In this document: piece after piece, positions 10,795-29,736 of the stretch
Layout of the letters: every line of letters begins with the position of its first letter
Numbering within the stretch: position 1 is the stretch's first letter
Origin: a virus
IMG/VR virus record: IMGVR_UViG_3300033233_000020
Coordinates: 1 to 64,000 of that record
Reading direction: 5' to 3' (one strand)
DNA length: 64,000 nucleotides
Notes under the pieces: generated by a model
The model's database searches: none
What the model saw: the letters and a program-made list of their open reading frames with translations, nothing else
Told to the model about the DNA's origin: nothing
Program-made: the position numbers and the translations under genes

Positions 10795-11118
10795 ATGCTT
10801 AGCATCACAGCACAAGGCAACATTGGCCGCGATCCCGAACTTAAGCAGGTAGGCGCAAATCAAGTTGCAAGTTTTTCGCTTGCGGCCAGCACCGGCAAAA
10901 ACGAAACAACATGGATCGAGTGTTCCGTGTGGGGCGCCAGATCAGATGTGGCAATGCGGTTCTTAAAAAAAGGCGGCTCAATTACAGTTTCTGGCCGTGG
11001 AAAAACTCGCGCTTACCTAAAAAAAGACGGCATTGCTGCATCATCTATTGAGCTTGATGTTTTTGATTTTACTTTGCCATTGCGCGCGAGCAATACCAAT
11101 GATGAGGTTGCTTTCTGA
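10795..11118 (+). CDS. ssb: Single-stranded DNA-binding protein
   Basis: A 107-residue OB-fold protein. GNIGRDPELKQVG, VASFSLAAS, TTWIECSVWGARSD and KKGGSITVSGRGKTRAY follow the SSB pattern in order. The C-terminus is short but ends in acidic residues and Phe (NDEVAF), as in proteins that recruit partners. It coats single strands in the RecE-like/Bet module. The gene is more AT-rich than its neighbours. Confidence 0.92.
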   Translation: MLSITAQGNIGRDPELKQVGANQVASFSLAASTGKNETTWIECSVWGARSDVAMRFLKKGGSITVSGRGKTRAYLKKDGIAASSIELDVFDFTLPLRASNTNDEVAF

Positions 11119-19413: not shown

Positions 19414-19449
19414 GTCTTCACTGCTTTTTTCTTATTCTAACTTAACCAA

Positions 19450-24947: not shown

Positions 24948-25310
24948 ATGATGCATTCCGCCCCATCTCCGGATGCGTTTTTAGATCATTTTATTGTTAG
25001 CGACAGCGAAGTCAAGAATCGTTGCTTAAGCCCACTTGATTTTGGTGGTGAGCTAGATAATGAAAACAATGACGTCCCACTAAATGACATGTATAATCGA
25101 GGTTTGGCACTGACCCAACAAGGTCGCGAGCGCCAGAATCTCCAAATTGAAGGTGGACCACGATGCGGACTAACGGGTTTAATTCCGAGTGCGGAGGAAG
25201 GAATGATGATGGGTGCTCAACCACAACCCCGCAGCTTGATCTTGGAGTTGGATGGACCGGACTCGAATCAGATCGAAATGTCGAAAAAACGCCGTGGTTT
25301 AACCCGGTAG
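24948..25310 (+). CDS. Hypothetical acidic protein overlapping DUF3310 gene
   Basis: A 120-residue frame beginning MMHSAPSPDAFLDHFIVSD, with no recognised domain. Its last 148 nt overlap the 5' part of the DUF3310 frame, so either both are translated or the DUF3310 protein starts later. Confidence 0.5.
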   Translation: MMHSAPSPDAFLDHFIVSDSEVKNRCLSPLDFGGELDNENNDVPLNDMYNRGLALTQQGRERQNLQIEGGPRCGLTGLIPSAEEGMMMGAQPQPRSLILELDGPDSNQIEMSKKRRGLTR

Positions 25311-25579
25311 AAGGGGAGTGTAAAGACGGATTTTGTCCCATGCCTCAACGTAAAGTTGACATGGTAAATCACCCACCACACTATTCCAACCCAAATAAAA
25401 AACTTGAAACTATCGATAAGATAGAGGATGCGGTTCAGTTTGCACCTAATCCTGTTCTTGGTGGTCTCCAGTGGCAAGTGCTGAAATATATGGACAGACT
25501 CTGGGACAAAGAAAACCCTAAGCAGGATGCTCAAAAAGCTCTCTGGTATCTTGAAAGACTAATCGCCAAACTTGACTAG
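25163..25579 (+). CDS. DUF3310 protein
   Basis: The conserved part is MVNHPPHYSNPNKK, then ETIDKIEDAVQFA, WQVLKYMDRLWDKEN and DAQKALWYLERLIAKLD, matching DUF3310, which is often annotated as a phage nucleotide-kinase-like protein. The frame is open from ATG 25163 (138 aa). ATG 25340 gives a 79-residue version with only the conserved domain and no overlap with the upstream gene. Confidence 0.75.
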   Translation: MRTNGFNSECGGRNDDGCSTTTPQLDLGVGWTGLESDRNVEKTPWFNPVEGECKDGFCPMPQRKVDMVNHPPHYSNPNKKLETIDKIEDAVQFAPNPVLGGLQWQVLKYMDRLWDKENPKQDAQKALWYLERLIAKLD

Positions 25580-25896
25580 AAGGGACTCAGTTCCTTTCTT
25601 AACTCGTCATTGTCGTCATCTTCGTCATCATCGTCGAACTCGTCAGCACACATCAATGCCAACTCAGTTAATTCAAGCTGGGTTGGCATGTCCCACTCAA
25701 GTTCGATACTTTCATCTGCCAAAATATCTTTGATTGCTGCCCATTCAATCATTCGACGATGATAGAGGTTCAGAAGGGCAGCATATAGCTGATCCCAAGT
25801 CATTTCTTGGGCCTCCAGCTCTGCCTTACGCATAGCAAACTGCAGTTGCAGAGGGAGTTCTAGCTCTCTTGGATTGACTGTTTCTTCCATTTGCAT
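25576..25896 (-). CDS. nblA: NblA-like phycobilisome degradation protein
   Basis: A 106-residue protein. Residues about 9-60 (ELELPLQLQFAMRKAELEA, then MTWDQLYAALLNLYHRRMIEW) align by eye with the NblA helical core: L-x-L-x-x-Q-x-QF, a turn, then a second helix ending in an M/K/I-rich segment. NblA proteins direct phycobilisomes to Clp proteolysis, and freshwater cyanophages are known to carry them. The acidic extension (61-106, with DEFDDDDEDDDND) is longer than the usual 60-residue protein. Homology is by pattern, not search. Confidence 0.6.
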   Translation of the reverse strand: MQMEETVNPRELELPLQLQFAMRKAELEAQEMTWDQLYAALLNLYHRRMIEWAAIKDILADESIELEWDMPTQLELTELALMCADEFDDDDEDDDNDELRKELSPF

Positions 25897-25933
25897 GCGA
25901 ATAACCTAGAAATATTCTAGGTCCTGTTATCGA

Positions 25934-26581
25934 TCACACCAGTAGCCTATCACTTTCCAGGTAATCGATGTGGTACTCATCTAAGATAAATTTATTGGCA
26001 AACGCTGCTAGAACATAAGGATTTAACTGCTCTTCAAGCTGCCTAATGGCATTGAGCTGCCTGGGAGAAGCCGTGTAGTTACGGAAAGCTTTGAGAAGAA
26101 TATCACTAGAAACCAGAACGGTATTTTTAATTTCGCTTAAAAAAAGCAAGGATTCTTCTCGCCGCCTGTCAATAAGGCCTCCAATTGTGCGGTCATAGTC
26201 GTCAAAAATCCAACGAGATATTTCTGCTGTCGCACCAGGCCAGTTCTCTCCTTCAATAAGATCAATGAGGTTACTGTATAAAAAAGAATCCCATCCAACA
26301 GAGTGGATAAATGAAATCAATGCTTCTCGCATTGATCCATCAATGCCCAGATTTAAACGTGCAACATCCTCTTCAATGATCCCTACATCATGCTGCAGAT
26401 ACTCCAGTGCCTTTTGCCTGGAACAACACTGACCTTTCTTTACTGCTGCTCCATCTGGGTAATATTGAGACCCATAACCAAACGTATAGGGTGCTCCACC
26501 AGTACTGGAATCAGGATAAGCACACTCACTGTATCCCTCATACTTCTTAATAATGTCAATTGCCCGCGCAAAAGAAGACAT
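25934..26581 (-). CDS. GH24-type lysozyme
   Basis: A 215-residue muramidase. E15 in KKYEGYSECAYPD and GYGS (35-38) give the T4-lysozyme-like E...GYG pattern. ALISFIHSVGWDSFLYSNL matches the following helices. The C-terminal 60 residues are extra and unrecognised. Among virion genes and away from the lysis cassette, it is more likely a particle-associated lysozyme used at entry. Confidence 0.8.
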   Translation of the reverse strand: MSSFARAIDIIKKYEGYSECAYPDSSTGGAPYTFGYGSQYYPDGAAVKKGQCCSRQKALEYLQHDVGIIEEDVARLNLGIDGSMREALISFIHSVGWDSFLYSNLIDLIEGENWPGATAEISRWIFDDYDRTIGGLIDRRREESLLFLSEIKNTVLVSSDILLKAFRNYTASPRQLNAIRQLEEQLNPYVLAAFANKFILDEYHIDYLESDRLLV

Positions 26582-29613: not shown

Positions 29614-29736
29614 GCTCTTCGGTGCTGTTGCTTTATTTTAAGAGCACCTAGTCAAGATCAAAGCTAAAGGTTTGGTTAAACCGCTTGACACGGGGCTACG
29701 GGCATGTAAGGTGCTGTTGTACTGCCACGCAATTCC

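Follow-up and report, generated by a model that had tools for sequence, protein, structure and literature searches.

The window analyzed here, a 64,000-nucleotide stretch of an IMG/VR virus record of 95,070 bases, contains a minus-strand open reading frame of 106 codons (25896-25576), which starts with ATG, includes a DDDDEDDD run and encodes the product MQMEETVNPRELELPLQLQFAMRKAELEAQEMTWDQLYAALLNLYHRRMIEWAAIKDILADESIELEWDMPTQLELTELALMCADEFDDDDEDDDNDELRKELSPF. Translation may begin instead at M3 (25890), an alternative start that is kept in all 70 distinct proteins of the family, with M1 found in close relatives only. A phage lysozyme (endolysin) gene (25934-26581, minus strand; PF00959, E = 1.5e-17) lies directly upstream, and a gene for a DUF3310 protein (25163-25579, plus strand; PF11753) converges on the reading frame from downstream. 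The stop codons of the two convergent genes overlap by 4 nt, and a search for a terminator between them found none. The reading frame, referred to below as the NblA-like gene, forms the 3′ end of a block of minus-strand genes, the major head protein gene among them, and directly follows the endolysin gene. The sequence-only reading of the window had named no strand for it.

The open reading frame is a real and strongly conserved gene, because it has an annotated orthologue in Synechococcus phage S-EIV1, because IMG/VR contains at least 529 stretches with genes for relatives of its product, and because the dN/dS of its core is 0.03. We computed dN/dS by segment over 88 pairs of moderate synonymous divergence; residues 11-61, the NblA-like core, gave 0.030, and the values for the gene lie far below 1. 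Purifying selection on the gene is thus strong. S-EIV1 (KJ410740), which infects Synechococcus, is the nearest known relative of the window; in a 10-kb stretch, 45% of the DNA aligned, at 77.8% identity. Its protein AHV82245.1, an 84% identical orthologue encoded between the same neighbours, is annotated as a 'hypothetical protein', without recognition of NblA in the record.

We also looked for relatives outside viruses. A plasmid search for relatives of the NblA-like protein returned none, and a collection in which each prokaryote species is represented by one genome yielded only one match to the family, on a contig (L080) of an archaeal metagenome-assembled genome (MAG). We rejected this contig as a cellular copy and consider it probably phage DNA mis-binned with the MAG, because its genes are arranged as in the S-EIV1-type phage lineage. 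A MAG labelled Euryarchaeota (SP67; genome G006) has NblA-like genes on at least three of its contigs (L080, L195 and L199), and at least one of them has a cyanophage gene order, so that they are apparently mis-binned phage DNA.

The surroundings of the gene are constant. Lysozyme was encoded directly upstream on the same strand in all 111 testable distinct contigs, and the DUF3310 gene was convergent and downstream in all 106 distinct contigs. Since these contigs share ancestry, the constant neighbours show that the NblA-like gene is fixed in the lineage of S-EIV1-type cyanophages, and do not show an independent coupling to lysis. A TAGAATA element resembling a -10-type promoter (25913-25919, minus strand, within the site 25913-25921) precedes the gene, 16 nt before the ATG and 22 nt before M3, and all 91 distinct copies carry the pattern TA(G/A/C)AAT(A/G) 20-26 nt upstream of the conserved Met. 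The letters TA-AAT were invariant among 54 distinct promoter-like sites. In S-EIV1, 12 of the 20 TA[GA]AATA sites lie no more than 60 nt upstream of a coding sequence, often 16-23 nt before its start, and this pattern ranked highest of 105 permuted patterns (mean 2.8 of 23.5). Similar sites in the window stand about 20 nt before a 1015-aa open reading frame (19433-19441) and before an HNH gene (29634-29642). TA[GA]AATA therefore appears to be a -10-type promoter element specific to this lineage, and its conservation supports the view that the NblA-like gene would have a promoter of its own, which, judging from the genes preceded by the element, would act late. The assignment of the gene to a late virion block, made in the sequence-only reading, is borne out by the block with the major head protein and endolysin genes and by the conserved promoter-like element. 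We dropped a candidate hairpin (z -2.4) in the 37-nt gap that precedes the gene, as it is not kept outside close relatives; a near-perfect inverted repeat, CCTAGAA-tat-TTCTAGG (25905-25923), overlaps the promoter-like element and is likewise found in close relatives only.

We then examined the core, residues 11-61 (25714-25866, minus strand). In a Pfam search of the window protein, NblA (PF04485), a small protein that directs the light-harvesting antenna of the cell to degradation, was the sole family match, covering residues 14-60 with an E value of 0.0031; its 18.4 bits fall below the curated NblA cut-off of 25 bits, but orthologues scored 27.5 and 28.5 bits, above it. Nineteen of 22 diverse homologues matched the same family, the best with an E value of 6.6e-6. 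The top PDB sequence match was the NblA structure 1ojh, over residues 11-60 (E = 0.0097 with the single sequence, 7.6e-4 with a profile). When the family profile was aligned by hhalign with eight cellular and phage NblAs, 52 ungapped columns were obtained at a probability of 93% and a score of 40.5, as compared with a maximum of 24.0 for 200 column-shuffled NblA profiles and 12.5 for a reversed profile. AlphaFold2 (AF2) predicted helices at residues 16-31 and 34-61, with a pLDDT of about 90, forming a helix-loop-helix hairpin; with a pTM of only 0.46, the model leaves it uncertain how its parts are placed relative to one another. Foldseek searches of two AF2 models against PDB and BFVD gave no significant match, a test with little power for a two-helix hairpin, and the window protein had no match in PHROGs or NCBIfam. 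The Pfam score of the window protein is by itself weak support, and the assignment leans on four further tests. Taken together, the proposal of an NblA-like core holds up: membership of residues 11-61 in the NblA fold family is supported by the sole Pfam match, the 19 of 22 homologues, the best PDB match, the shuffle controls and the orthologues above the cut-off. The profile check succeeds for the orthologues and falls short for the window protein itself, and the structural check gives the predicted NblA hairpin without a Foldseek match to NblA.

These data also bear on the possibility that the likeness to NblA is fortuitous and that the protein is a helical hairpin with an accessory role in the virion or in lysis. 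The endolysin gene is always adjacent, the gene lies in a late block and Foldseek returned no NblA, all of which would suit such a protein; against it stand the several NblA signals with their shuffle controls and the cyanobacterial host, as S-EIV1 infects Synechococcus, which suits NblA. We give this possibility little credence.

The core nevertheless departs from NblA at several positions. In the NblA alignment, L7, E10 and Q11 are invariant. The N-terminal motif LxLEQxF of NblA reads LPLxLQF in the phage family, which retains L7 (L14 in the window protein), Q12 (Q19), F13 (F20) and R16 (R23) and replaces the E10-Q11 pair with (Q/E/H)17-(L/M)18. Toward the end of the hairpin, L51 of NblA is kept as I/L58, and K53 of Anabaena NblA is lost, being A60 in the window protein and A, Q or E in the family; we take L51 and K53 to be the phycobiliprotein-binding residues of NblA. 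ClpC is reported to be bound by the N-terminal motif of NblA and phycobiliproteins near its C-terminus (PMC4103541). The changed E10-Q11 pair thus falls in the reported ClpC-binding region, and the changed K53 in the reported phycobiliprotein-binding region. Because the fold is supported but the contact residues are not strictly identical, we class the protein as a divergent variant of the NblA family rather than as an NblA.

The C-terminal part of the protein (residues 62-106) had been described as a 45-residue acidic extension foreign to ordinary NblA. Such an extension exists, contains DDDDEDDD and is absent from ordinary NblA, but it is acidic only at about residues 84-102; residues 62-83 are a conserved strand or linker followed by a helix, and the terminal Phe is conserved as well. 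The strand or linker, E(N/S)IELE(F/W)DxPT (residues 62-72; 25681-25713, minus strand), has a dN/dS of 0.066, and the extra helix, (Q/D)LELxELAxxC (residues 73-83; 25648-25680, minus strand), which AF2 extends over residues 73-87, has a dN/dS of 0.018. E62, P71, T72, E75 and L79 are invariant among 70 distinct proteins. The acidic low-complexity run (residues 84-102; 25591-25647, minus strand) is less constrained (dN/dS 0.136) and modelled by AF2 with low confidence; its D/E runs vary in length among family members, the final 25 positions of the 70 proteins containing about 12 acidic residues on average and 9 at the least. The tip, LSPF (residues 103-106; 25579-25590, minus strand), ends in Phe in 69 of the 70, as PF in 45 and as VF in 20. 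We treat this tip as a conserved, putative docking motif without assigning a partner.

The strong constraint on the added helix and the altered contact residues raise the question of whether the protein might be an NblA-derived Clp adaptor whose target has become a different protein of the host or phage, the fold and dimer being kept and residues 62-83 together with the tail providing a new specificity. The changed EQ motif and the loss of K53 would be expected of such a protein, as would a new helix (residues 73-83) constrained at least as strongly as the core and, within the core, very high conservation, as in the near-invariant AELEAQEMTW block. However, the reading comes without a candidate client, and other divergent cyanophage NblAs are taken to be phycobilisome adaptors, marine viral NblAs having caused phycobilin loss in PCC 7942 according to work cited in PMC9602691. 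We regard re-targeting as unlikely.

The tip draws attention to another system. An acidic run followed by a terminal Pro-Phe is common to the NblA-like tail and the tip of single-stranded DNA-binding protein (SSB), which in E. coli is DDDIPF and whose terminal Phe makes a key ionic contact with partners (PMC5872125). The protein might thus act late in DNA metabolism, with the tail serving as an SSB-type tip that docks the hairpin dimer onto phage or host SSB partners such as primase, polymerase and exonucleases. Besides the Phe end in 69 of 70 proteins, with PF after an acidic run in 45, it speaks for such a role that the SSB-like protein of these phages ends in PF in 11 of 11 related genomes, usually after acidic residues, and that only 2 of the 128 S-EIV1 proteins end in PF, namely the annotated ssDNA-binding protein and the NblA-like protein, although two such ends among 128 are suggestive only. 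The end is VF in 20 of the 70 proteins, yet in three genomes of this kind that we checked, PF remained the end of the SSBs, so that co-variation of the tail with the phage SSB tail was rejected; moreover, the gene is grouped with genes for lysis and late functions and not with those for replication. We judge a DNA-metabolism role improbable. The window protein itself matched no SSB family in the Pfam search, and thus has no OB-fold ssDNA-binding domain match. The phage has two SSB-like proteins, one of 107 aa ending in NDEVAF (window positions 10795-11118, plus strand) and one of 269 aa ending in ELAHEPF (genome position about 71478-72287, L202). A more speculative idea, to which we assign a low probability, combines the two activities in a bifunctional adaptor, whose NblA-type hairpin would recruit the host protease and whose tail would mimic SSB on replication or repair proteins; if true, it would couple late infection, proteolysis and DNA metabolism, beyond antenna dismantling.

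We favor, with moderate confidence, the reading that the gene encodes a divergent NblA-type protein with a tail, a late-expressed proteolysis adaptor fixed in the S-EIV1 cyanophage lineage. The protein would be produced late, from its own promoter and just before lysis, and would, like NblA, dimerize through its helical hairpin to give a four-helix bundle. This bundle would attach to proteins of the phycobilisome and bring in the host protease ClpC, so that the antenna would shrink, bleaching the cell, amino acids would be freed late in infection and less excess light would be captured before lysis. Residues 62-106 would constitute a conserved small module with an acidic tether, whose terminal Phe would dock onto a partner protein. 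An effect of the extension on Clp or antenna contacts, as suggested in the sequence-only reading, is a hypothesis. Phycobilin loss has been reported from phage NblAs, for which an amino-acid gain and reduced light capture have been proposed (PMC9602691). The points against this adaptor reading are the window protein's score below the Pfam cut-off, the changes at E10-Q11 and K53 and the lack of a Foldseek match; fixation across the lineage beside lysozyme would also be compatible with a function that does not involve phycobilisomes.

If the protein is a working adaptor, antenna dismantling would be a fixed late function of the whole lineage rather than the work of an occasional accessory gene, and the tail would be a natural experiment on a Clp adaptor gaining a new contact. 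S-EIV1-type phages are widespread; of the reads that one marine survey assigned by mapping to cyanophage groups, 3.3% belonged to this group (PMC5332604). That survey gives nblA for other cyanophage groups, and for the S-EIV1 group no more than hli and ptoX (PMC5332604). The tailed NblA-like family is therefore new with respect to the S-EIV1 record and this survey, and may possibly have been recognized earlier elsewhere. An S-EIV1-like prophage is present in S. elongatus UTEX 3055 (PMC9239245), which could provide a model strain.

Comparison with known NblAs delineates what is peculiar to the family. Cyanobacterial NblA (PF04485; 1ojh, 3cs5 and 2q8v/2qdo) matches it without gaps over about 50 residues, including both hairpin helices and the conserved Leu, Gln, Phe and Arg positions, whereas the phage family has changed the EQ motif, lost K53 and added a conserved C-terminal module of 45 residues. 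NblA is a small protein of 63 aa on average (PMC4103541), without an additional domain; the cellular NblAs compared here have 54-70 aa, as against 106 aa for the window protein with its module at residues 62-106. The NblAs of the freshwater phages Ma-LMM01 and PaV-LD belong to the same Pfam family and, like the window protein, are phage-borne in cyanobacterial hosts, but they score 45-52 bits, retain LEQ or MEQ and lack a long tail. Furthermore, nblA of Ma-LMM01 adjoins nrdA/nrdB, whereas the window gene adjoins lysozyme. The NblA homologues of S-TIM5, S-SCSM1 and MAG phages are recognized by sensitive profile methods only, those of S-TIM5 and S-SCSM1 having been predicted in this way (PMC9602691). 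The S-TIM5 and S-SCSM1 homologues appear to be further from Pfam NblA than the window family is, because neither had a PF04485 match at E ≤ 1 in the search applied to that family.

A second tailed lineage (L195, L199 and L218; 113-115 aa) resembles the window protein in joining an NblA helix to an acidic C-terminal extension of about 50 residues. This extension cannot be convincingly aligned with that of the window family and ends in -SEE or -PEE, and the genes have other neighbours, with an HNH-like reading frame overlapping upstream. Since the two extensions differ, a C-terminal extension of phage NblA probably arose more than once. In all, L195, L199 and L218-L222 are apparent cyanophage contigs whose genes for NblA-like proteins of 113-115 aa overlap the end of an HNH-like frame.
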